Below the pieces are notes generated by a model, which searched no databases, had not been told where the DNA came from, and saw only the letters and a list, made by a program, of their open reading frames with translations. From the NCBI GenBank assembly GCA_026414185.1, contig JAOAJL010000008.1, forward strand, positions 1 through 53,717: DNA of 53,717 bases, written 5' to 3'. Made by a program: the position numbers and the translations under genes. Below are positions 6,498 to 53,717 of the stretch, piece after piece (position 1 is the first letter of the stretch; the number at the start of each line of letters is the position of its first letter). This DNA comes from Microcaldota archaeon. Lineage in GTDB: Archaea; Micrarchaeota; Micrarchaeia; Anstonellales; Anstonellaceae.

Positions 6498-9008
6498 TTG
6501 CTTTTGTTCCAAACTCATAAAAAGGAAGAGAAAAAAGACCCGCTATTCAACATAGTTCCGATAAAAAAGCAGAACGTTGTTGGGTTGGAACTTATACCGG
6601 GATGGAATGCGTCTTCTTCAGGGGATTACGGGATAGATCTGGGCTCAAAGTTCTTCGTTAAGTATGGAGATGCGTATATCAGCGCAAGTCCGGTCGTGAA
6701 GATAGCCAAAGGGGGGAAGGTGGAGCTAACCGGCCTTTTTTGCCTTTCTCTGCCGACAGGAAGTCTCATTGTTGACTACAGCAAGCTTGCCGGGGTTGGA
6801 ATAACTTTAAAGTCAAACACCGGCATAGGAATCACCTATTCCAAAAGGTTGGATGAGATACTGACTGGAAACTATCACTTTGAGGTTTCTGGTCTTGGCG
6901 GGCCGGCGGGAGATGTATATTCCATTGCAAAGCTTTTCAAAGCACTCAAGGCCGGCGGCGCAAGCATTTCTACTTGGATTTCTGGCTTAAAAGGAATAGC
7001 CGATTTTATCTACTCCATCTTCAAACCGATTGTTGAGTCAATAGGCTCGTTTATAACCGAAAAACCCGCCCCTCCATCCAAAGAGACCCTTGACAAGCTT
7101 CATAATCCTTCGGACAGCAATCCGCTGACCATAACGGAGTGCCTTTCCATTCTCCAGTGGGAAGGCTGTTCCAAAGAAGACAGAACCGATGCCGCCACAA
7201 TGCTTTCCGTGCTTCTTATGGCAGACCTCTATAACTTAGGAAGCGGAAAAGACAGCAAGCTGTCGCTTTCGGATTGGGACAAGCTCATGCCAATCCTCCA
7301 GAAAAACAGGGAGTTTTTTGGCTCCTCGCTTGGAGAAATAGAACAGGTTTTGGATGCAATTAGGCTGGGAGCCCCATCAGGAGCGGCATTTACTCCATTC
7401 AGCGGGGGTCTTGTAGGGAACATAGCAAACGCTCTGCTTGGAAGCATTTTCAACGTGGAAGAATACACCCTTGTCCTTCCACGTCTTTACAAGCTTTTGA
7501 ACCTCTTTGACGGCGTTTTCAGTTTCAGAAATACAAAAAATGCAGAAGGCTTTTTCGGCAAAATAGGCGGATTTTTTTTGGATGTCATTAATATGCCCCT
7601 GCAGCTGGCAAGCAACCTGTGGTCAGCCGTAAGTCCGTTGCAGAGAAAAAGCGACGTACGGGCGGACAAGGTCAAAGAAAACATTAGAAGCAAACTTGAG
7701 TGGAACGAAGCCACGCTTAGAAAAGGCGGCGAGAAGATAACCGAGCAAGAGCGCATCCAGCTTTACAGCAATCTCATTTACCTTACAAACATGCTCCCCC
7801 TTCTTGCGACATCCGGCGATTCGCAGCTTGAAGAGCTGGCTGAAAGGATAACAAAGCACATCACAGGCGACAAAAAGAACTCTACATTCTATAGCGTGCT
7901 CATGGCTCGCATGACGCGGGCAGAGATAGGGACGGAGAAGGAAAAGGGTTCCCTCATGTGGAAGCTTGCCAATGCCAAAACAGACAAGGAAAAGCAAGAT
8001 GCTATTGACAAACTTAATAGTGCTTTCACCTCTCTCAACAATATCTACCTGAGGCTCCAAAGTATAGGATACGAAGGCTTGGACAAGAGCCTGGCAATTG
8101 AGCTTGCAAGGGAAAAAATGTTTATAAGGCGCCATCTTGAGTATCTGAACAAGATAAGGAAAAAAATGAAGCTTGAAGATCAAATTCCTGATTGGAAGGA
8201 AGTGGGCAACACCCTCAAAAATTTCTATAATGACTTGCAAAGCGGAAAGGCAGCTGAAATGTGGAAAAAAGTCGCAAATATCTTCAAATCAGGCAACTTT
8301 TACAGCTCCACGCTTACGAAGGAGGAAGAGGAAGCAATGACGTATGTCATGTCTCTTGCCGCCTATGCTGAAAAATACAGCGTTCTTGGGGATCTTCTTG
8401 AAAGCTGGTCGGGCAAGCAGGACCAAAACCTTGCCAAGCAAGCTTTCAATTCACTGATAAAACTCATTGAAAGCGAGGCAAAGGAGGGGAACTTTGAACA
8501 TCTGTTCTATTTGCAGGCTTTTGACAAACTCTTCCCAAACATAGTCAAAAATTATGAGGGCAGTGAAGTGCTGGAAGATGCGATTGAAAAGTATGTAAAG
8601 GACATGACGGTTTCGGCAGGCGACCTGAAAAGCCAGGATGCGCGCCAGCTTTTTTTCAACGGATTTTATCTCTCATTGAATCTCATCTACGGGCTATGCC
8701 AATTTACAAATTTCAGCGCAATTGACAACAAAACTCTCAAGGAATGGGCAACGGAAAAACTGCCCGATGCACTGCGGACGCTTTACGAAGTTATCAAATC
8801 ATCAAAAGACGCAGGCAATAGTTCCGATTATGATGCAGCGTGCAGTTTGCTCTACAATGCGACCATGGTTGCACAGCCAATAGCAAACAGATACGGCGTG
8901 AATATCTTCAGCGGCTTTAGCGGATCTGAACTGACGATGCTCAGAAATGAGATTGGCTATTGGATAGCTGCCAAAACGAAAAGCTTGCAGGAGCAGTCCA
9001 AAAAATGA
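6498..9008 (+). CDS. Unrecognised 836-residue protein
   Basis: I do not recognise this family. The first ~130 residues look beta-rich with alternating hydrophobic/glycine strands (for example GKVELTGLFCLSLPTGSLIV and GVGITLKSNTGIGITYSK). The rest is largely alpha-helical and charged, with many Leu/Lys/Glu segments and no convincing signal peptide. A moderately hydrophobic stretch lies near residues 290-320. The start is a TTG with GGGGTG five bases before it; two nearby ATGs (6475, 6478) are out of frame. Codon use is somewhat AT-richer than the neighbouring glycan genes. It lies directly upstream of the GT2 gene on the same strand (45-nt gap), so a surface or glycan role is possible but unproven. 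Confidence 0.75.
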   Translation: MLLFQTHKKEEKKDPLFNIVPIKKQNVVGLELIPGWNASSSGDYGIDLGSKFFVKYGDAYISASPVVKIAKGGKVELTGLFCLSLPTGSLIVDYSKLAGVGITLKSNTGIGITYSKRLDEILTGNYHFEVSGLGGPAGDVYSIAKLFKALKAGGASISTWISGLKGIADFIYSIFKPIVESIGSFITEKPAPPSKETLDKLHNPSDSNPLTITECLSILQWEGCSKEDRTDAATMLSVLLMADLYNLGSGKDSKLSLSDWDKLMPILQKNREFFGSSLGEIEQVLDAIRLGAPSGAAFTPFSGGLVGNIANALLGSIFNVEEYTLVLPRLYKLLNLFDGVFSFRNTKNAEGFFGKIGGFFLDVINMPLQLASNLWSAVSPLQRKSDVRADKVKENIRSKLEWNEATLRKGGEKITEQERIQLYSNLIYLTNMLPLLATSGDSQLEELAERITKHITGDKKNSTFYSVLMARMTRAEIGTEKEKGSLMWKLANAKTDKEKQDAIDKLNSAFTSLNNIYLRLQSIGYEGLDKSLAIELAREKMFIRRHLEYLNKIRKKMKLEDQIPDWKEVGNTLKNFYNDLQSGKAAEMWKKVANIFKSGNFYSSTLTKEEEEAMTYVMSLAAYAEKYSVLGDLLESWSGKQDQNLAKQAFNSLIKLIESEAKEGNFEHLFYLQAFDKLFPNIVKNYEGSEVLEDAIEKYVKDMTVSAGDLKSQDARQLFFNGFYLSLNLIYGLCQFTNFSAIDNKTLKEWATEKLPDALRTLYEVIKSSKDAGNSSDYDAACSLLYNATMVAQPIANRYGVNIFSGFSGSELTMLRNEIGYWIAAKTKSLQEQSKK

Positions 9009-43236: not shown

Positions 43237-43254
43237 ATCTTATTTGTGATATAT
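43233..43254. promoter_or_regulatory. Inverted repeat ATATATC-N8-GATATAT, candidate PadR operator and promoter
   Basis: A perfect 7-bp dyad overlapping the TATA region (minus TTTAAATATATC) of the PadR operon. Its AT-rich half-sites resemble known PadR boxes (ATGT/ACAT-like dyads) in style only. Occupation would block TBP. Confidence 0.5.
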
Positions 43255-43299
43255 TTAAATAGCTATTTACCCGCACTTTTTGCTTTTGGCAGCAAACGC

Positions 43300-43306
43300 T
43301 TTAAAT
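43300..43306 (+). promoter_or_regulatory. TATA box of the M29 aminopeptidase gene
   Basis: TTTAAAT is centred about 24-27 nt before ATG 43327, predicting a leaderless transcript. It is 46 nt from the nearer inverted repeat, so the gene need not share PadR control. Confidence 0.55.
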
Positions 43307-43326
43307 GGCGCGGCAGAACTTTCCCC

Positions 43327-44448
43327 ATGCCAGCTGCGCTGGAAGACGAAATGAGGCTGATGGGGCTCCTTGAGCAGACCGCGCGCCCGCAGAAGGGGGA
43401 GCGCGTGCTTTTCCTTTCCGACTACTCCTCAGGCAAAAGCAGCGCCGGGAGGGTTTGGAGATGGGAGCTTGTGAAGAAATGGCACAGGGCGGCATCTCTG
43501 CTTTCGCAGAGGAGCGGCTTCCGCCTCCTGCCAATAGTGCGCTACCAGGAAACCGGCAGGAACAACGCCGAGCTCCCTAAAACCGCCTCCACGCATGACG
43601 GCGGGCACGTGAATGACCTTGCCGAGCTTGTGGCAAGCGCAAATGTGGTGCTGGCTATAACCGAATATTCTGCTTCAGCCCCCCTCCGCAACCTGATTGC
43701 CCGCGCCCCCTCCCTGCGCGCAATCTCCATGCCTGGCGTGAGCCCTGGGATGGAGGGGGCGATGTTTGCGGACTGCAAGGCGATGCAGGAGCGGGGAAGG
43801 CGGCTTTTGGCAATCGTTTCGCCGGCAGACGGCTTTGAGATAGTCTTTGACGGCGAGGGCGTCCCGCGGGGCACAAGGCTGTTTATTGACACGCGGGCGA
43901 ACAACTGGATTTTGGAGGCAGGGGACTGCACCAAGCCCGGTGATTTCATCAACCTGCCGACAGGCGAGCTTTTCACCCCGCCCTACGAGGGGGTTTCGCC
44001 AGAGGGCAGGAGCCGGCTTGGAGAATCGCGAACGGAAGGCGTGCTTCCGGTCCATTCGCCCTCGGACGGGAGGGTTGCCTTCCTGAAGATACAGAAAAAC
44101 CGCATAGTGAGGGTTCAGGGCGACTGCGAAGCCGCAAAGCGCATCATTGAGGACATCGCGCAGGATGAGAACAACGCAAACATCGCGGAACTGGGGATTG
44201 GAATAAACCCCATGGCAAGAAGCGCCGCAGGCGTGCCTGTGCTGGAAAGCGAAAAGGCGGGTCCGCACATCGCCTACGGGAGAAACGACCACTTCGGGAC
44301 GCCCCTCAGCCTCGCGGGAAAGGTTCGCGCCTTGCTGCACCAGGATATTGTCTATGCGAAGGACTCGCCCATAAAAGCCACCATCCATGCAGTCTATCCC
44401 AGCGGAAAGAGGGTGCTTGTTGCCGAGCGCGGCAGGGCGGTGGTCTGA
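43327..44448 (+). CDS. M29-like (leucyl) aminopeptidase
   Basis: 373 residues of the COG2309 aminopeptidase family. Recognisable blocks are ISMPGVSPGMEGAMFADCK, RGTRLFIDTRANNWI, GDFINLPTGELFTPPYEG (metal-binding Glu), NIAELGIGINPMA and HIAYGRNDHFGTPL near the C-terminus. These supply the two-metal site (Glu, His, Asp). It trims N-terminal residues from peptides, possibly downstream of the proteasome. The start is set by the TATA box; the longer frame to 43246 is rejected. Confidence 0.85.
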   Translation: MPAALEDEMRLMGLLEQTARPQKGERVLFLSDYSSGKSSAGRVWRWELVKKWHRAASLLSQRSGFRLLPIVRYQETGRNNAELPKTASTHDGGHVNDLAELVASANVVLAITEYSASAPLRNLIARAPSLRAISMPGVSPGMEGAMFADCKAMQERGRRLLAIVSPADGFEIVFDGEGVPRGTRLFIDTRANNWILEAGDCTKPGDFINLPTGELFTPPYEGVSPEGRSRLGESRTEGVLPVHSPSDGRVAFLKIQKNRIVRVQGDCEAAKRIIEDIAQDENNANIAELGIGINPMARSAAGVPVLESEKAGPHIAYGRNDHFGTPLSLAGKVRALLHQDIVYAKDSPIKATIHAVYPSGKRVLVAERGRAVV

Positions 44449-44741: not shown

Positions 44742-46553
44742 CTACATCCTCTCAAGCGCCTCAATCCCAAGCAGGCAAAGCGCGTTTTTGAGGGTGCAAA
44801 GAGAAGCGAAGTTTATCGCCAGCCTGTTGCCTTTTGCCTTTTCATCCTCGCAGGAAAGCACGGGGCAGGAGTTGTAGAACTTGTTGTAAAGCGCCGCGAG
44901 GTCAAGGCAGTACTCGCAGAGAATGTGCGGGCGCAGGTGCAGGGCTGCCTGCTGCACTGCCCACTCAAAGAGCATTATCTGCTTGAGAAGCCCCCTTTCA
45001 GCCTCCCCAAGCGCCATGCGCTGCGCCTTGCCCGCCCCGCCCTTCTCAAATATCTTGTGCGCGCGGGCGTGCGCATAAATCACGTAGGGCGCAGAATCCC
45101 CCTCAAGCGAGAGCGCATCGTCCCAGTTGAATATTATCTTCTTCTCGGGGGTGGTGCGCAGGAAGGAAAACCTTATTGCGCCTGCCGCAACTGCCTGCGC
45201 GATTTTCCGCCTCTCCTCCGCTTCCGCGCCCTCTTTCACCCTTTCCATGGCGCGCTTGACACCCTCCTCGTAAAGCTCGTCCGCGGTGTAGCCAATCCAC
45301 GTGCCCTGCCTGCCTGAGAATTTCTCGTCCTCAAGCCAGACGTGCTCGTAGGCAAGATGGATTGAGTTTTGCGCTTGGCGCTCGTAGCCCATGCTCCGAA
45401 GTATCTCAGAAATCACCTTCTGCGGATATGCCTGCTCCATGCCGATTACATTCACGACCCTGCCTGCCTTGCCGTATCTGCCTTTCCTGCCTTTTGCGCA
45501 GCTCATCAGGCATTCCTTGCCATTGGGCTGGAGCATGAACCTGCAGTAGGAAAAGTCGTTTTTGAGCAAGCCGAACTTCCAAAGCTGGAAAATGACGTCT
45601 TTGCCGGTGTAGGTGGCGGTGCCGTCGCTCCTTATGAGAACCTTGTCGGGGCTTTCCATCTCCGCAAACTCCGCGCCCTTCATCTTCGCAACAAAGCAGC
45701 CGGCGTTCTTGCCCTCGGTTTCCTTCACTATCGCTCCGTTCTTTTTCAGCTTCTCAATCCCCTCGCCGAATATCTCCCTCACTATGTCGGACTCAAAAAT
45801 CAGCGCGTCGTGCCAGATGCCGAACTTGAAGGCGGTTTCATACTGCGCTCTGACGCACTCTTCAACAAGCTTGCGGCACTCCTGCGCCTCCTTCCCAGCC
45901 CCCTCCTCCATCTTCCGCAGGATTTCCCGCACCTGCCTTTGCACTTGCCCGTCCTGCTCAAAGCGCCTGCTGACTTCCACATACTGCTTGCCAAGCCACA
46001 AGTCAAGCTTCCCCCGCGGCTTTTCCCCGAGGCTTTTGTAGCCCCAATAGGACTGGGCGACCTGCAAGCCCAGGTCGTCTATGTAGTCGATTCTCTCAAC
46101 CTCTGCCCCTGAGAACTCCAGTATCCTTGCGACCGCGTCCCCCAAAAGCGCGTTTCTCAAATGCCCGATGTGCCATGGCTTGTTGGGATTCACGGAAGGG
46201 AATTCCACTATGGTCTTGCCCTCTTGCCAGCCGCCCCTGCCCCATTCGCCTCTCTTTTTGGCAACCTCGCGCAGAAGCTCTGCGTAGAATTCTTCCGAGA
46301 GGAAGAAGTTGAGATAGGGTCCTGTTGCCTGGACCCTTTCCACCCACGAGGGCAGGCTTATGCCAGCCGCGATTTGCCTGGCAAGCTCAGCCGGGCTCCT
46401 TTTCCTTTCCTTCGCAAGCAGAAAGCAGACGGAGCTTGCGATATCCCCAAACTGCCCCTTGGGAAGCTCCACTGAGCGGTTTGCCTCCTCAGCCGAGACA
46501 CCCGCAGCTTCCGCAATCGCAGCCGCCAGCCTTTCCCGCAGGGAAAAGAACAT
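44742..46553 (-). CDS. argS: Arginyl-tRNA synthetase
   Basis: 603 residues, class I synthetase. The N-terminal additional domain (Add1) covers residues 1-90. The HIGH motif is in VNPNKPWHIGHLRNALLGDA, and GIEQAYPQ-like and IGYTADELYEEG follow. The C-terminal DALR anticodon-binding domain begins near SAPYVIYAHARAHKI. It charges tRNA-Arg. GGAGGAG directly upstream sets ATG 46553; the longer frame runs through the cas1 promoter. It is divergent from cas1. Confidence 0.96.
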   Translation of the reverse strand: MFFSLRERLAAAIAEAAGVSAEEANRSVELPKGQFGDIASSVCFLLAKERKRSPAELARQIAAGISLPSWVERVQATGPYLNFFLSEEFYAELLREVAKKRGEWGRGGWQEGKTIVEFPSVNPNKPWHIGHLRNALLGDAVARILEFSGAEVERIDYIDDLGLQVAQSYWGYKSLGEKPRGKLDLWLGKQYVEVSRRFEQDGQVQRQVREILRKMEEGAGKEAQECRKLVEECVRAQYETAFKFGIWHDALIFESDIVREIFGEGIEKLKKNGAIVKETEGKNAGCFVAKMKGAEFAEMESPDKVLIRSDGTATYTGKDVIFQLWKFGLLKNDFSYCRFMLQPNGKECLMSCAKGRKGRYGKAGRVVNVIGMEQAYPQKVISEILRSMGYERQAQNSIHLAYEHVWLEDEKFSGRQGTWIGYTADELYEEGVKRAMERVKEGAEAEERRKIAQAVAAGAIRFSFLRTTPEKKIIFNWDDALSLEGDSAPYVIYAHARAHKIFEKGGAGKAQRMALGEAERGLLKQIMLFEWAVQQAALHLRPHILCEYCLDLAALYNKFYNSCPVLSCEDEKAKGNRLAINFASLCTLKNALCLLGIEALERM

Positions 46554-46640
46554 AACTCCTCCTTTGCGCAAATAAATAATATAAGTTGCGGGTATTGGCG
46601 ATGCCACCTGTGCCAGTAGCGGAAATGACCCCTGGAAAGC

Positions 46641-46650
46641 TTTATATATA
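46641..46650 (+). promoter_or_regulatory. TATA box of cas1
   Basis: TTTATATATA is centred about 28 nt before the cas1 ATG and there is no ribosome-binding site, so the cas transcript is probably leaderless. The 119-bp divergent space with argS shows no CRISPR repeat. Confidence 0.6.
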
Positions 46651-46672
46651 AAACCAGAAAAAACCACTCCTC

Positions 46673-47656
46673 ATGCAGTTGATAATTGACGACTACGGCG
46701 CATATATAGGGCAAAGGGACAACTTGTTTGAGATACGCCGCAAGGATGGGACAAAGGAGGAGTATTCCGCGGACAAGCTGGAGCAGATAATAATCGTGAA
46801 AAACGGCTGCATATCAACCAAAGCGGTTCTGCTTGCGGCTCGGAACAACATAGACGTGGTTTTCATAGGGAAATTCGGCATGCCGGAGGGAAGGCTGTTC
46901 CCTGCCGCGCTGGGAGGCGCCAACCTCATAAGGCGCAAGCAGCTTGAAGCCGCCCAAGGCGCCCGCGGAACCGAGATAGCGGTAAAACTCGTCTGGGCAA
47001 AAATGAAAAACGAGGAATTTTTCCTTAAAGCCCTCCAAAAAAGCAGGGAAGGCGATTTTCTCCTGCTTAAGGCAGAGGAAATTTCCAGGCTTGCCTTGCA
47101 GCTGCGCAAAATGCTTGAGGGCGGCTTTGACGCTGAGAGGGTTTTCGGGCTTGAGGGCATGGCGGCGGCGCACTATTTTGCCGGCTTGGCTGAGGTGATG
47201 CCGATAAAAAAGCGCGACCAGGAGGGCAAAGACGAGCCGAATGCCCTTCTCAACTATGGCTACGGCATCCTTTATGGGGAGATAGAGAGGGCGTGCCTGC
47301 TTTGCGGTCTTGACCCCTATCTTGGCTTTCTGCATGCCGACCGCTATGGCAAGCCTTCCCTGGTGCTTGACTTGATAGAGGAATTCCGCCCAGTGATAGT
47401 TGACAGGGCGATAGTCACCCTCTACGCTCAAAGGCAGGTTCTTCCCTCTGACTTTGAATACGGGGGCGAGAAGGTGTTTCTCTCCAAAGAGGGGCGCAAG
47501 AAGGTTGTGGAGGCGGTAATGGGGAGGCTCCACACCGAAATAACGAGCGATGGCAGGAGGCTTGAGCTTTGCGCCGTCATACAGGAGCAGGCGCGGCGCA
47601 TTGCGTCATTTGCTAAGGGAGAAGGCGGCTTTGAGCCTTTTCTATACAGGTGGTGA
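46673..47656 (+). CDS. cas1: CRISPR-associated endonuclease Cas1
   Basis: 327 residues. The N-terminal beta domain (LIIDDYGAYIGQ, LEQIIIVKNGCIST) is followed by the helical catalytic domain, with metal-binding Glu in GLEGMAAAHYF, His in LGFLHADRYGKPSLVLDL and acids in IEEFRPVIVDRAIV. Cas1 integrates new spacers with Cas2. It is first of a cas operon and leads into cas2 with one intervening base. Codon use is GC-rich like the host chromosome. Confidence 0.97.
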   Translation: MQLIIDDYGAYIGQRDNLFEIRRKDGTKEEYSADKLEQIIIVKNGCISTKAVLLAARNNIDVVFIGKFGMPEGRLFPAALGGANLIRRKQLEAAQGARGTEIAVKLVWAKMKNEEFFLKALQKSREGDFLLLKAEEISRLALQLRKMLEGGFDAERVFGLEGMAAAHYFAGLAEVMPIKKRDQEGKDEPNALLNYGYGILYGEIERACLLCGLDPYLGFLHADRYGKPSLVLDLIEEFRPVIVDRAIVTLYAQRQVLPSDFEYGGEKVFLSKEGRKKVVEAVMGRLHTEITSDGRRLELCAVIQEQARRIASFAKGEGGFEPFLYRW

Positions 47657-47657
47657 G

Positions 47658-47963
47658 GTGTTCTACTGGATAATTTATGACATTTCTGACAACAAAAGGC
47701 GCGACAGGGTTGCCCGCATATGCAAGAACTACGGCTTCAGGCGGGTGCAGAAAAGCGCCTTTGCGGGCGAAACAACACAAAACAGGCTTGAGATGCTGGA
47801 GCTGGAATGCAAGGAAGTGCTGGAAAGCGGGCAGGACGGCGACTGCCTTTTTGTCCTTCCTGCCTGCTCCTCCTGCTTCAACAGCAAAAGGATAACGATG
47901 GGCTCGATTGACGAAAGAAAAATAAGGGATTGCGGCTATATGTTTGCGGGTGGGAGCGTATGA
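47658..47963 (+). CDS. cas2: CRISPR-associated protein Cas2
   Basis: 101 residues starting GTG as VFYWIIYDISDNKRRDRVAR, the ferredoxin-like first strand with its conserved Asp. YGFRRVQKSAFAGETTQ follows, with DCLFVLPACSSC strand 4. Cas2 bridges two Cas1 dimers. The frame extends to 47550 across cas1, but that part is a shadow. The stop overlaps the cas4 ATG by four bases. Confidence 0.95.
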   Translation: MFYWIIYDISDNKRRDRVARICKNYGFRRVQKSAFAGETTQNRLEMLELECKEVLESGQDGDCLFVLPACSSCFNSKRITMGSIDERKIRDCGYMFAGGSV

Positions 47964-48565
47964 ACCGGCTGGGCATCATCAGCATAAGGGATATCCTCAA
48001 TTACAACTATTGCCCGCGCATTCCCTATTATGAATACGTCCTTCGCCGCCCGCAGGCGAGGACGCCGAAGGAAGACAAGGGGCTAGAAATGCACGACTCA
48101 TTCGTTCCGCGCGCAAAGCGCAACAGGATGGTCAAGGCGCTTTACTATGACAGGAAGCTGTTCAACCTGCCCCTCTACTCGCCAAGGCTCAACCTTCAAA
48201 CACGGGTAGACTGCGTCCTGATGAACACGCGCGACAGGATTGCCGTTCCGATGCAGTTCAAGCACGGCAAGGCGCCAAGCTGCCTTTATCGGACAATGAG
48301 ATACCAGCTTGTGGCGGAGGCGATGCTCATTGAGGAGGAATTCGGCTTTTCCTGCCCCTACGGGCTGGTGAAGTTTTTGCCGGAGGAGAAAACTATCAAA
48401 ACAAATATAAATATTAAAGACAAGGAAGAATTAGTGTGGCAGGTGGAAAAGATAAGCAATATAATAAGGTTTGAACAATACCCGGAAGGCCCCAGAACAA
48501 AAAACTACTGCACGGACTGCTGCTATTACAGGAAGATATGCGGCGGTTATATGAGAGGCGAATGA
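47960..48565 (+). CDS. cas4: CRISPR-associated exonuclease Cas4
   Basis: 201 residues. The iron-sulfur Cys ligands are NYNYCPRIPYYEY at the N-terminus and YCTDCCYYRKICGGYM at the C-terminus. The RecB-type nuclease core carries TRVDCVLM (Asp) and AVPMQFKHGKA in place of the usual GDEK. It trims prespacers and selects PAM orientation. ATGA overlap with cas2. The base composition changes abruptly to AT-rich inside this gene near 48390. Confidence 0.92.
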   Translation: MNRLGIISIRDILNYNYCPRIPYYEYVLRRPQARTPKEDKGLEMHDSFVPRAKRNRMVKALYYDRKLFNLPLYSPRLNLQTRVDCVLMNTRDRIAVPMQFKHGKAPSCLYRTMRYQLVAEAMLIEEEFGFSCPYGLVKFLPEEKTIKTNINIKDKEELVWQVEKISNIIRFEQYPEGPRTKNYCTDCCYYRKICGGYMRGE

Positions 48566-48566
48566 C

Positions 48567-50243
48567 ATGCTCGCATACGAGCTGTTCTTGAAAAACAGAA
48601 AAACGGATTTTTTCAAAACAAACCCAAAACTATCTGGCACTTACGTGAGAAAGGTCTATGTAGCGATGGATAAGGGCAAATATAGAGCAGAGTTAGACGA
48701 CGCTTTGCCGGCGGAGGTGGGAGCTGCCGATAATCCACTACGCTTGATTCCGGGCGATGCTGCTGGTCTGCCTGACAGAGGGACTGGCAGCAACTCACCG
48801 AAACCGTATGTGCTTTTAGATGTTAAAATAAATAAAAAACAGCTACAGATCAGTTTCAAAGATTTTAGAGCAACGTTTTCTTTTGAAGACAAAAAAGAGC
48901 AGATAAAGAAAGGTAATAGCATAAGACAAAAGATGGAGAAGGAGAGAGTGTTCCTAAACGGCAGGAGGCTTTATGATTTATACGTCCAGAACAAGATATT
49001 AGAGGAAATAGATGGAAAAACATATGTTAATCAGGATGCACTGGAGGCATCTGCGAGAGCATTTTTTAAAGCTGTGGAGGCGGCATGGACCGCAGATAAA
49101 ATGGAAAAATTCAAGAAAGTTAAGCTTTGTATTCTCCCCGAAAAGGGGAATTTGGATTATAAGGCGGCAGCCGACAGGGCAGCGGACAGCAATGAAGAGA
49201 AGTGGTTCATAGATAGTTTTGGTAACCGTTGCAGCAAAACTGCCGATTCCACTACTCTGACTGCAAAATTCTTATCTTATGACGACCCTATTTTTACTCT
49301 CAATCTGCGCTCAAAAAGGGAATACTACGATAACCTTGGAATAGGAATGGAAAGCCTTGAAAAAATAGAGCTTCCAAAAGGCTTCAAAATTTCTGGGTTG
49401 ACCTTCATTTTCTATGATATTGACAATCCAGACAAAAATTTTGAAAAGAAAGAAGGCTACAGTTATGATTGGATTGGTTTTTATAATCACCTACTTAACA
49501 TTTACAGGGAGATGGACAAAACCAAACAGCCAGCTAAGAGGGGCCAGCTCAAGACCATAGTTCTCAAACCGGATAGAGCAAAGTTGGAGGTTCTTATTGA
49601 CAGCAACCTTACATTTGACCAGCTTGGCGAGATATTGGGGCCATCGCCACAACCCTGTCCAGACCTATTTGAACAGTTGATAAACAGGGATGGAAAAAAT
49701 GTCCTGTGGAATGACTACATCTGGGCAATACGGAGCTTTCTTTCGCTCCATCCGGTAAAAAAAGATACGCTTATCGCCAAACTTCTTTTTCATTTGAAAA
49801 GAAAGAGGCAAGAATTTATTAAAAATGAGGGTGGAAGATTTGTGAATGCTGCGAGTGCCAGGGAATTTTTCTCCAAAAACCAAAATCTCATAAAGATACT
49901 GTGTAGAGGTGATGGGATGGCTGAATTAACCAGTGATGAGAACTGGGCATACATAATCGGTCAAATAACGGGAAAATACATATCATTCAGGAAAAGGGCC
50001 GGTGAAGCTTCCAAATCGCTGACTGATATACTCACATATTCAAAATATGATGAAGAAAGACTAAAGCACGTATTTAATCGCATATCTGCGGGCATATCCA
50101 TATCAAACGCAGATGAAACGAGCAAGGCTGCCGTGCAGAAGTTTATAAAAGAACGCTGTGAAAATGCTCCCCTAAAGCTTGAAAAACCTTATGAGGATTA
50201 CTCCTACTTTTTTTACCGCGGAGTATTTGAAACAATTGAGTGA
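48567..50243 (+). CDS. cas8b: Cascade large subunit, Cas8b/Csh1-like
   Basis: A 558-residue divergent large subunit placed directly before cas7 and cas5, as in type I-B. Recognition is mainly by context, length and Csh1-like segments (RKVYVAMDKGKYRA, SFGNRCSKTADSTTLTA, ILGPSPQPCPDLFEQLI). It should recognise PAM and recruit Cas3. A GC-rich, low-complexity stretch (48706-48815; DALPAEVGAADNPLRLIPGD onward) stands out against the AT-rich gene body. Its ATG is two bases after the cas4 stop. Confidence 0.8.
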   Translation: MLAYELFLKNRKTDFFKTNPKLSGTYVRKVYVAMDKGKYRAELDDALPAEVGAADNPLRLIPGDAAGLPDRGTGSNSPKPYVLLDVKINKKQLQISFKDFRATFSFEDKKEQIKKGNSIRQKMEKERVFLNGRRLYDLYVQNKILEEIDGKTYVNQDALEASARAFFKAVEAAWTADKMEKFKKVKLCILPEKGNLDYKAAADRAADSNEEKWFIDSFGNRCSKTADSTTLTAKFLSYDDPIFTLNLRSKREYYDNLGIGMESLEKIELPKGFKISGLTFIFYDIDNPDKNFEKKEGYSYDWIGFYNHLLNIYREMDKTKQPAKRGQLKTIVLKPDRAKLEVLIDSNLTFDQLGEILGPSPQPCPDLFEQLINRDGKNVLWNDYIWAIRSFLSLHPVKKDTLIAKLLFHLKRKRQEFIKNEGGRFVNAASAREFFSKNQNLIKILCRGDGMAELTSDENWAYIIGQITGKYISFRKRAGEASKSLTDILTYSKYDEERLKHVFNRISAGISISNADETSKAAVQKFIKERCENAPLKLEKPYEDYSYFFYRGVFETIE

Positions 50244-50252
50244 GGTGTGAAT

Positions 50253-51218
50253 ATGGAAAAAAACGAAAGGAAAGAGTTTTTGTTCTATTATGAATCGAGG
50301 CAAAACCCGAATGGAGATCCTGGTTTTGAAAATCAACCGCGTCTCCTGCCGGATGGACGTATTTTAGTAACTGACGTAAGAATAAAGAGGACGATACGCG
50401 ACTATGCCAAAAAGAAATTCGGTAAGGTGCTTTTTGTAGATTTTGGAGACGATGGAAATCCGGTAAAAGCTGACAAGAGGGCAAAGGAAATTTTGGGGGA
50501 AACAAACGATTTCACCAAGCTTCTGACTGAAACATTCGATGTGCCCCTTTTTGGCGCCCTGGTACCCATCCCAAAAAAAGGAAAGAAAGACGACGCCGAG
50601 TCAGAGGGAGCTGGCGGCGCTTCCTTTAAAGTGACTGGCCCTATACAATTTTCTTTGGGCAGGAGCGTTAATCAGCCAGAGATACTAAACCCCATCATCA
50701 GCAGCCATTTTGTAGGTAAGGAAAAGGGTGGAGAACAAGAGCACGGTACTTTCGGTAGATTCTATTCGGTTGATTATGCCTTGATAAAATTCCAAGGAGC
50801 GATTAACCCAAATAATCTTTCAGAGTATTGGAGTAAAGAAAAAGGGGATAAGGCGTGGAAAGCATTCCAAGAAAATGAAAAAATATTCTTTGATTGCCTC
50901 TGGAATGGAACGAATGAGTTAACTACGCGCTCAAAATACCCTCAAAGGAGTGTCTTTTATTTTGAGGTCACATATGATGGCGTATGCTATAATGACCTTG
51001 ACGTGCTTGTCAGAGAAAACGAAAACTTGAAATCCAAGATTACAGAACTAAACCCCGCTGGCTTTGATTTTTCAAGACTTATCAAAGCAATGGAAAAGCG
51101 CAAAGGGAAAATTAAGAAAGTCGCATTAGCTGCCTGCGAGGAACTTGAAGACGTTGCTCGCGACCTATCCAGCAGTCTCAAAAAAACTGGGCTGGAAATA
51201 GAGTGGAGAAAATGCTAA
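50253..51218 (+). CDS. cas7: Cascade backbone protein Cas7 (Csh2, type I-B)
   Basis: 321 residues. YYESRQNPNGDPGFENQPRL is the Csh2/Csd2 signature after the first RRM strand; VTDVRIKRTIRDYA, FDVPLFGALVPIPK, SFKVTGPIQFSLGRSVNQPE and EHGTFGRFYSVDYALIKFQG follow the family pattern. Multiple copies coat the crRNA. A short acidic/Gly insertion (KKDDAESEGAGGASFKV) lies in a loop. GAGGTG five bases before the ATG chooses this start over GTG 50247. Its 3' end overlaps cas5. Confidence 0.93.
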   Translation: MEKNERKEFLFYYESRQNPNGDPGFENQPRLLPDGRILVTDVRIKRTIRDYAKKKFGKVLFVDFGDDGNPVKADKRAKEILGETNDFTKLLTETFDVPLFGALVPIPKKGKKDDAESEGAGGASFKVTGPIQFSLGRSVNQPEILNPIISSHFVGKEKGGEQEHGTFGRFYSVDYALIKFQGAINPNNLSEYWSKEKGDKAWKAFQENEKIFFDCLWNGTNELTTRSKYPQRSVFYFEVTYDGVCYNDLDVLVRENENLKSKITELNPAGFDFSRLIKAMEKRKGKIKKVALAACEELEDVARDLSSSLKKTGLEIEWRKC

Positions 51219-51931
51219 TCCAGAGCTTTGAGATAGCTGCTTCCTTTGCTCTATTTCGCGATCCCACCGTCACCACTTGCCCGACTTCATATACAATCCC
51301 TCCGAAAAGCGCAATTATCGGATTGATCTCAAGCTTTATCGGTTTTCCAAGAAGCCCGAAAGAAGACTATTCAGAAGATTACTGTGATCTGCTCTCCAAA
51401 ACAAAGGTAGGTGTCGAGTTACTTTTTAACCCTGCGAAGACGACTATGTTTATCAATCATATCGGACTGAAAGTTGGGAGAAAACCGATGAAAATGGAAT
51501 TCCTAATAGAGCCGAAATATAGGATATATTTGTCAACCAACGACGCTCGATATGCGGAAAAAATCGGAAATGCGCTCACCGATAATGCGTTTGTATACAC
51601 ACCTTATCTCGGACACAGCTACTGTCTCGCCAGAGTGCACGACTATAAATTCTGCGAAGGAAAAGAAACAAGAGAGAAAAGCTTTAGAACAAAAACAGTG
51701 GCAGTCGAGAAGAAAGGCGAGTTGAACAAGCCGGCGCTGAGTGTCCTTAGGGTCGGTGCAACCAGATTGATAATTGAACGCCACCTTTTCCACGAAATAG
51801 TCGATGGGCGGTTGAAAAAAAGCGTGCTTAAGCACTACGCGCCCGTAAACGGCGAAATTAAGATTGAGCTTCAAGACGAAAGCAGGATGACAATAGTCAA
51901 CGCAGAAGGGGAAAACATATGCCTCTATTGA
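51212..51931 (+). CDS. cas5: Cascade protein Cas5 (type I-B, Cas5h-like)
   Basis: 239 residues. MLIQSFEIAASFALFRDPTV begins the RRM-like domain, and SYTIPPKSAIIGLISSFIGF is the helix of the Cas5 signature, with a glycine-rich loop following. Cas5 caps the 5' handle of crRNA. The ATG lies inside the last codons of cas7. AT-rich codon use is shared with cas8b, cas7 and cas3. Confidence 0.9.
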   Translation: MLIQSFEIAASFALFRDPTVTTCPTSYTIPPKSAIIGLISSFIGFPRSPKEDYSEDYCDLLSKTKVGVELLFNPAKTTMFINHIGLKVGRKPMKMEFLIEPKYRIYLSTNDARYAEKIGNALTDNAFVYTPYLGHSYCLARVHDYKFCEGKETREKSFRTKTVAVEKKGELNKPALSVLRVGATRLIIERHLFHEIVDGRLKKSVLKHYAPVNGEIKIELQDESRMTIVNAEGENICLY

Positions 51932-51935
51932 GGGT

Positions 51936-53717
51936 ATGGGCGTGACTTTTTTTTCCCATCCAGCAAAAAATGACGATAGGCCTTTCCTATCAACCCACCT
52001 ACTGCAAGTTGCAGGTTACACATCGGAATTAATTAGACAGATAGGCGGCGAATACGAAATTGCCTATGTTGCAGGTTTGCTCCATGATGTTGGGAAGCTA
52101 AACCCGCATTATCAAAAGCCATTCTCCAAAGGAGAACCGCCTTGTCCTGATTGTAGATATGTAAAGAGCCATTCCATTTTTTCCGCCTTTGCCTGCGACC
52201 AAGCATTGTTGAATCTCGAAAAACGAAACTGCAAAACGATGGCGACGATCTGTATTTATGGGCATCATTCGTCGCTAAAGCCGATTAGCATGCTACCTAT
52301 CGGTTTCAAAGATAACAAAAAGGAAGAGATTGATCTTACTATAAAAGCCATAAACGAAAGTTTGCCAGCGCTTCTCGAAGAACTAAAAAGGGACGAACAA
52401 GCAAAAAAAATTTTGCCGAAATCCATAGAGATTGAGCAAATGGATTTCTCTGACGGATCGGATGAGACAGACAATATAGAACCTTTTTTTGAAACCAGTT
52501 GCATTTATTCAGCTTTGCTACAGGCAGATCGCGGCGCCGTTTCAGAATGGAGAGAGAAGATAACTAATCCGCTTTTCTCCTTTCATTTTGACACGCGGCG
52601 GATGATCCAAAGCACAAACAACATTTTGGCGTCCTACCGCGACAGCTACTATCAATCAATTTTCAATGGAAGAGATTTTGATGGCAATTTCATGATACTC
52701 TGCGCGCCGACTGGAATAGGAAAGACGAGAATATTCCTTGACATTGTTAACAAGCTTGCCTCAAAAAGAAAGTTTGAGAGAGTTTTCTATTTTTCCCCTC
52801 TTTTGGCGTTGACGGAAGATTTTGAGGATAAAATTGAATGCATAATACGAGAAGAAGAAAAGAGCAGGATATTGAAGTATGACCATACGTTCAAAGGATC
52901 ATTAGAGAAAGAAGCAGAAACTGCAAAAGATGACTATGAAGAAGAATATGAGGAGTGGAATTTCAACGTTGAAAGCTTTAATTATCAGATGATTATCACA
53001 ACGCCCCAACGTTTGCTCTACACGTTGTTTTCTGACAGAGCCGCCGATAAAATAAAATTATTGTCTTTGAAAAATTCTGTTTTGATCATAGACGAGATTC
53101 AGACGTTACCCAGAGGGTTGCTTATACCCACGATAAAGCTCCTAGAGTTAATAAGCCGCAGGATGAATTCTGTAGTCATAATAGTTAGCGCTACGATCCC
53201 CTATGAGGTAAGAAGCTTAGAGCACGCTCACAAAGTAGAGGGCGATGAGGAGATCAATCGCAAATACCTAAATTTGACCAAAAAAACAGTAAGGTATGTG
53301 CCGAACAACCCTACCTTTGAGGATGAAAAGGGAAGGCGCCTGAAAATGTTCAACACGAGAGCGGAGGCTGCCAACAATGCAAACTCTGCTGATTATTATC
53401 TAACGGCCGGATTGACTAAAAAGGACAGGCTTGAACGCTTAAAAGAAATAAAGAACAAATGTGATTGTTTTGTTGTATCCACGCAAGTCCTTGAAGCGGG
53501 TGTTGACGTCAGCTTTGACCAGATATGCAGGCAGCTTGCACCGCTTGACAACATGGTCCAAACGCTAGGGCGGCTCAATAGAGAGTGTGAAAGAAGAGAG
53601 GCTCTATTGATAGCATTCGACTGGAGTATCAATGGGCAACTCTCATATGTGCCTTATGGACAGCTAGAATTTGAACTTTCGCGATCTTTCTTTAAGAAAA
53701 AACAAAACACGGATTCT
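51936..53717 (+). CDS. cas3: CRISPR-associated nuclease-helicase Cas3 (3' partial)
   Basis: 594 codons are open to the window edge, so the C-terminus is missing. The N-terminal HD nuclease has FSHPAKNDDRPFLSTHLLQV, LLHDVGKLNPHYQK and YGHHSSLKP. The SF2 helicase then has Walker A CAPTGIGKTRI (about 52707-52740), DEIQTLPRG as motif II, IVSATIPYEV as motif III and VQTLGRLNRE as motif VI. It unwinds and degrades target DNA recruited by Cascade. ATG 51936, four bases after the cas5 stop with GAGGGT upstream, fits best. Confidence 0.95.
   Translation, partial: MGVTFFSHPAKNDDRPFLSTHLLQVAGYTSELIRQIGGEYEIAYVAGLLHDVGKLNPHYQKPFSKGEPPCPDCRYVKSHSIFSAFACDQALLNLEKRNCKTMATICIYGHHSSLKPISMLPIGFKDNKKEEIDLTIKAINESLPALLEELKRDEQAKKILPKSIEIEQMDFSDGSDETDNIEPFFETSCIYSALLQADRGAVSEWREKITNPLFSFHFDTRRMIQSTNNILASYRDSYYQSIFNGRDFDGNFMILCAPTGIGKTRIFLDIVNKLASKRKFERVFYFSPLLALTEDFEDKIECIIREEEKSRILKYDHTFKGSLEKEAETAKDDYEEEYEEWNFNVESFNYQMIITTPQRLLYTLFSDRAADKIKLLSLKNSVLIIDEIQTLPRGLLIPTIKLLELISRRMNSVVIIVSATIPYEVRSLEHAHKVEGDEEINRKYLNLTKKTVRYVPNNPTFEDEKGRRLKMFNTRAEAANNANSADYYLTAGLTKKDRLERLKEIKNKCDCFVVSTQVLEAGVDVSFDQICRQLAPLDNMVQTLGRLNRECERREALLIAFDWSINGQLSYVPYGQLEFELSRSFFKKKQNTDS

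Follow-up and report, generated by a model that had tools for sequence, protein, structure and literature searches.

In situ replacement of a CRISPR effector beside a retained adaptation module has been documented (Hudaiberdiev et al. 2017, PMC5704561; 2025 updated classification, PMC12669027), the cases given in the main texts of these papers involving either one Class 1 subtype taking the place of another or, within II-C, a change of cas9. We describe here a CRISPR-Cas locus at the end of contig C33 of a Microcaldota archaeon (53,717 bases; this whole contig is the stretch analysed, hereafter the window). The contig belongs to a metagenome-assembled genome (MAG; G000) of 0.96 Mb in 35 contigs, 87% complete and with a contamination estimate of 0.49%. 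At its end, argS on the reverse strand is followed by cas1-cas2-cas4-cas8b-cas7-cas5-cas3, and the contig breaks off inside cas3. Very probably, this was once a type V-F locus whose effector and most of whose array gave way to type I-B counterparts of the Thermoproteota kind. With the replacements described in those texts the locus shares retained adaptation genes, a replaced effector, preserved flanking synteny and boundaries near gene ends. Unlike them, it would have passed from a Class 2 (V-F) to a Class 1 (I-B) effector, with the array exchanged as well and V-F repeats left behind. A V-F to I-B exchange with a two-repeat array is not met in the main text of either paper, the supplements of which may record a cross-class case. 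In situ effector replacement itself being known, what is unusual is the passage from Class 2 to Class 1 together with the relics of the old array.

Two groups of loci resemble the window in different parts. Type V-F loci of two related genomes, G034 and G024, have cas1, cas2 and cas4 in the same order (63-77% identity) and a 37-base repeat differing at 3 of 37 positions, whereas the window lacks cas12f and carries cas8b-cas7-cas5-cas3 in its place. Type I-B loci of Thermoproteota (L124-L137) share the cas8b-cas7-cas5-cas3 order, the protein clade and the 3′ two thirds of the repeat; their operon, however, begins with cas8 and ends with cas6-cas1-cas2-cas4-array, while in the window V-F-type cas1-cas2-cas4 of another lineage precede cas8b.

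Adaptation and effector modules

Among 147 related genomes, the closest Cas1 proteins were those of G034 (77%) and G024 (69%), which belong to other families of the same order. Cas2 (~63%) and Cas4 (69%) matched the same loci with the gene order kept. In both genomes the gene directly after cas1-cas2-cas4 is Cas12f-like (544 aa long in G034, truncated in G024 where the contig stops), the G034 effector being assigned to Cas12f/Cas14b by PADLOC (E 1e-167, 2e-148) and also matching the Pfam Cas12f1-like TNB family and PDB Cas12f chains. Since the relatives of the window's adaptation genes directly precede a Cas12f gene, we assign this module a V-F origin. The archaeon's own genome gave no tblastn match to G034 Cas12f or to the TnpB-like protein of G011, a genome treated below. 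The Cas1 tree placed the window with G034 and G024 (support 96/99), the type I-B clade's own Cas1 proteins forming a separate, fully supported group; forcing the window Cas1 among these cost 50 log-likelihood units (lnL) and was rejected by the approximately unbiased (AU) test (p = 6.8e-5). This Cas1 was absent from all nine congeners, and at 77% identity it stands closer to G034 than do ArgS (55%) and an aCPSF1-like protein (71%), arguing that the V-F-type adaptation module was itself probably acquired laterally.

The effector genes point elsewhere. Cas7 has a sharp group of nearest relatives in GTDB genomes (49-59% identity, all others at ≤38%), comprising Nitrososphaerota, Bathyarchaeota, Methanomethylicus and one unclassified MAG. 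Matches to cas8, cas5 and cas3 lie in the same loci and order, and the Cas7 and Cas3 trees both recovered clade membership with a Shimodaira-Hasegawa-like approximate likelihood ratio (SH-aLRT) support of 100. The PADLOC Cas8b1 match covers 555 of the 558 residues of Cas8b (P0004; E=5e-97), for which Pfam and NCBIfam give no match, and Cas7b, Cas5b and Cas3 are encoded in one operon with it. The cas4 stop and cas8b start are a single base apart, so that the genes read as one operon. Reading of the sequence shows the HD, Walker A and DEIQ motifs in Cas3 and the C-terminal cysteines in Cas4; cas3 lacks ~140-150 C-terminal residues at the contig end. At 0.417, the G+C content (GC) of the segment compares with 0.37-0.42 in Bathyarchaeal type I-B loci and 0.537 in the host. 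In Thermoproteota the clade operon starts with cas8 and runs cas8-cas7-cas5-cas3-cas6-cas1-cas2-cas4-array. Adaptation genes of the effector's own clade, usual for type I-B though not required of it, were not found here, the Cas1 being V-F-type, and three Cas6 proteins of the clade had no match in the assembled genome (87% complete), in which the contig ends within cas3.

A donor was sought more widely. When 301 genomes of the phylum were searched with Cas7, only one gave matches, at 27-38%. A Cas8 pattern scan of genome contigs and a search of viral contigs with Cas7 and Cas3 gave nothing, and plasmids yielded distant Cas7 but no Cas8. The locus with the best Cas7 match (L123) was considered as a ready-made hybrid donor and rejected: an unrelated gene end lies upstream of its cas8, and Cas4 is unmatched in its genome.

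The first-pass annotation of this DNA had proposed that the interference module arrived by transfer beside an older adaptation module. Because the separately built module trees are incongruent (Cas1 versus Cas7 and Cas3), transfer and different ancestry stand; "older" holds only in part, as the adaptation module is probably a lateral arrival too.

Array and host flanks on a second contig

In several congeners argS adjoins a marC-like gene or lies one gene apart from it; the archaeon's own marC-like gene sits at the end of another contig, C18 (L048). Its stop codon is followed directly by two V-F repeats, one degenerate and one intact (GTTGCAGCGCCCGAATTAACGAGATGAGAAATGCAAC in the direction of marC). 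Beyond a spacer of 38 bases lie two copies of the type I-B repeat, GTTGCATAGGCTGATCCAGTAAAACAAGGATTGAAAC, of which the contig end truncates the second. It is the intact V-F copy that differs at three positions from the array repeat of G034, GTTTCAGCGCACGAATTAACGAGATGAGAGATGCAAC, which in reverse complement is printed as the V-F1 repeat of contig DALG01000019.1 (PMC10606334 Table 1). Among the 147 genomes, the V-F repeat (≤3 mismatches) occurs only in the window genome, G034, G102 and G126, and this cas1, cas4 and V-F repeat are all lacking in the congeners that have argS near the marC-like gene. The type I-B repeat, which ends ATTGAAAC, matches Rfam CRISPR-DR7, equals a Bathyarchaeal (Bathycorpusculum) type I-B repeat at 23 of its last 24 bases and, across the 301 phylum genomes, turned up only in the window genome. 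The few recovered spacers had no foreign match in the loci compared. What goes beyond the first-pass annotation is that the adaptation module is of V-F origin, that the array was exchanged too and that V-F repeats remain on the far side.

C33 contributes argS and C18 the marC-like gene as syntenic host flanks, one on each side, and orientation fits the order argS-cas1-cas2-cas4-cas8b-cas7-cas5-cas3-[gap]-type I-B array-V-F trailer-marC, in which we infer the physical link between the contigs. A course of events consistent with this order would begin with a type V-F locus (cas1-cas2-cas4-cas12f-array) entering the lineage of this archaeon at a site flanked by argS and the marC-like gene. Later, an AT-rich type I-B operon, cas8b-cas7-cas5-cas3 and probably then cas6, would have replaced cas12f, and the array would have been swapped for type I-B repeats except at its V-F trailer end, C33 and C18 presumably joining across the unassembled gap. 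In the resulting system, prespacers would be captured, trimmed and integrated into the type I-B array by the V-F-derived Cas4-Cas1-Cas2; Cas6, whose gene is expected to lie in the gap, would make CRISPR RNAs, and Cas8b-Cas7-Cas5 with Cas3 would destroy targets.

On C18 (L048:5303-5411), the type I-B repeat begins GTTGCA like the V-F repeat, and seven clade repeats differ from it at positions 3-5. This start may reflect a chimeric or adapted repeat, or recombination microhomology.

The junction and competing explanations

A single-breakpoint likelihood scan of GC returned position 48,389 whatever the left start (30, 40, 44 or 46 kb). The likelihood gain was 53-151 lnL, and the 3-lnL intervals fell within 48,285-48,407; GC is 0.54-0.56 to the left and 0.417 to the right. 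The scan of GC at third codon positions (GC3) gave 48,389 as well (0.68 to 0.44), its interval of 48,362-48,606 being wide enough to take in the cas4/cas8 border. Relative to host genes, GC3 of cas1, cas2 and cas4 lies at the 61st-83rd percentiles and that of cas8, cas7, cas5 and cas3 at the 0.6th-2nd. The segment holds the lowest-GC 5.3 kb of the genome (0.425 at 48,001-53,300; next outside the locus 0.459; genome 0.537). The break is thus real and sharp, as the first-pass annotation had it when it described host-like codons in cas1, cas2 and most of cas4 giving way suddenly, near 48.4 kb, to A/T-rich ones through cas3. It had also put the change inside cas4. Codon choice given the amino acid, with host usage from 482 host open reading frames (ORFs) and foreign usage from cas8/7/5/3, agrees: it peaks at 48,374, with a posterior of 0.95 inside cas4 and the cas4/cas8 border 4.85 lnL worse. 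As stretches of 58 codons from the host look no less foreign than the cas4 end in 2.4% of cases, this placement is moderately rather than overwhelmingly supported.

By homology, Cas4 is V-F-type over its full length. Its N-terminal part is 0.78 and 0.74 identical to the two nearest V-F Cas4 proteins (0.79 in the control pair, G034-G024), and the AT-rich last 58 codons are 0.49 and 0.55 identical (control 0.55). The idea of Cas4 as a protein chimera was rejected, since the N- and C-part identities match those of the control (circular-shift p 0.52), albeit with low power for so short a C part. The recombination within cas4 that the first-pass annotation offered as its other option is hence not established. 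Both Cas4 parts being V-F-like, and cas4 of the type I-B relatives lying far downstream of cas8 and being only ~24% identical to the window's, homology places the family-level junction at the cas4 stop and cas8 start, ~48,548-48,567.

Several points weigh against the proposed replacement. The compositional break lies ~160-180 bases left of the family-level junction, where a single clean swap predicts no offset; passage through an intermediate host whose V-F cas4 was AT-rich may account for it, as may chance similarity of the kind seen in 2.4% of host pieces. Assembly does not bridge C33 and C18, whose link rests on synteny and matching repeat types. The closest known donor is only 59% (Cas7) or 35% (Cas8) identical. 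Finally, no independent contig with the left junction was found, and the genome is an 87% complete MAG.

The offset could be accommodated by a two-step course, which refines the swap rather than opposing it: a hybrid of V-F cas4 and type I-B genes would have arisen in another, AT-rich archaeon and then recombined, inside cas4, into a resident GC-rich V-F locus. We regard this as plausible, if on balance doubtful. The codon break inside cas4 favours it, as does the N-to-C drop in GC3 along cas4, which is 0.28 here and only 0.07 in Cas12f loci, whereas no hybrid donor was found in the 301 phylum genomes or the genome-contig scan, and the C part of Cas4 has the same relations as the N part, although 58 codons give little power.

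Alternatively, a complete type I-B system including cas6-cas1-cas2-cas4 may have entered the V-F locus, its own adaptation genes falling in the assembly gap and the V-F-type cas1-cas2-cas4 persisting as a passenger or second adaptation module. The gene order of the Thermoproteota loci would allow this, the contig breaking just before the expected cas6. However, neither a cas6 nor a further copy of cas1, cas2 or cas4 is present in the assembled genome, itself only 87% complete, and we consider such an insertion rather unlikely.

That C33 fuses two organisms at cas4/cas8 through misassembly or misbinning is improbable. Metagenome assembly into 35 contigs, a sudden change in composition and a contig end within the foreign part would all suit such a chimera, but a V-F to type I-B transition in the array appears independently on C18, which was assembled separately and has the genes and GC of the host; moreover, a random misjoin would not be likely to leave cas4 intact and, one base on, cas8b with its correct start, and the contamination estimate is low. 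This check is an argument, not proof. Least credible of all is that no transfer occurred and that selection or local mutation bias made the effector genes of one co-evolved locus AT-rich: the Cas12f genes of the relatives are also lower in GC (0.36-0.37) than their flanks, but the different-class effector of Thermoproteota affiliation, the incongruent trees (AU p = 7e-5) and the two repeat families leave this next to no room.

Related loci and significance

Features of the window at and beside the CRISPR-Cas locus, with the evidence for each (ML, maximum likelihood)
Feature	Position	Strand	Evidence
Conserved host gene, argS partner in congeners (left anchor)	43246..44448	+	50-71% identity and argS-adjacent in six congeners
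argS, left host anchor	44742..46667	-	NCBIfam arginine--tRNA ligase; beside marC-like gene in several congeners
cas1, V-F-type adaptation module	46673..47656	+	TIGR00287 E=1e-77; 77%/69% to G034/G024 Cas1; tree
cas2	47658..47963	+	TIGR01573; ~63% to V-F loci; GTG start at 47658 is a reading, ORF open from 47550
cas4, host-like part, 143 codons, GC3 0.76	47960..48388	+	Codon usage, Cas4 part comparison
cas4, AT-rich end, 58 codons, GC3 0.48	48389..48565	+	Still V-F-type Cas4; C-terminal cysteine cluster
Compositional breakpoint	48374..48389		ML: codon usage 48374, GC 48389
Family-level junction by homology, V-F-type cas4 end / type I-B cas8b start codon	48548..48567		Cas4 homology to residue 207 of P0003; conserved Cas8 start MLAYEL at 48567
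cas8b (Cas8b1; P0004)	48567..50243	+	PADLOC PDLC01110 E=5e-97; 31-35% to cas8 of Thermoproteota loci
cas7b	50247..51218	+	Pfam PF05107, Csh2; 49-59% to a Thermoproteota clade
cas5b	51203..51931	+	TIGR02592; 34-40% to same Thermoproteota clade as cas7b; ATG 51212 also possible
cas3 (HD + helicase), cut by contig end	51936..53717	+	TIGR01587/TIGR01596; 41% to L124 Cas3 over 607/747 aa

Elsewhere in the window, positions 6498-9008 hold an 836-aa ORF with a GC of 0.456 against a background of 0.53, the second AT-rich patch of this stretch.

The genome also contains a second CRISPR array, broken by the assembly between the ends of contigs C1 (L065:9890-10060) and C8 (L038:13600-13905), with repeat GTTAGAAAAGTAGTTTCAGCAAAACAAGGATTGCTAC and no cas genes nearby. 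Its repeat core, CAGCAAAACAAGGATTG, is that of the type I-B family, so the type I-B effector may serve this array as well. In two further genomes of the class, orphan V-F-type repeats occur in 1-3 intact or degenerate copies, with no matching cas1, at L115/L118 (G102:C14:19119-19230) and L116 (G126:C7:6670-6706); they are likely remnants of lost V-F loci. G011, of the same family as the window genome, carries on contig C15 (L024:9320-12927) a diverged cas1-cas2-cas4 (Cas1 46%), a 518-aa TnpB/Cas12-like protein and a CRISPR array, possibly another type V locus. Finally, in G119 (contig C20, L022:14776-18655), cas1-cas2-cas4 without an adjacent effector lies near a putative AbiEi/AbiEii-like pair, as read from the sequence, whose GC is ~0.43 versus 0.52-0.58 in most neighbours.

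That adaptation and effector modules are reshuffled is central to accounts of CRISPR evolution, but is usually inferred from trees. Here it has left physical traces, with old adaptation genes on one side, old trailer repeats on the other, the new effector and repeats between them and host anchors outside. Tentatively, the locus may even be a working cross-class hybrid, in which the V-F-derived Cas4-Cas1-Cas2 writes a type I-B array whose repeat has gained a V-F 5′ end; the idea of such a gain comes from the GTTGCA start shared with the resident V-F repeat, the rest resembling clade repeats. If so, the adaptation enzymes would have kept their repeat specificity while the effector class changed. 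It can now be tested whether a Cas12f system's Cas4-Cas1-Cas2 is able to provide spacers bearing the motif needed by a Cas8b complex. More broadly, the locus suggests that pairing of a Class 2 adaptation module with a Class 1 effector is possible.

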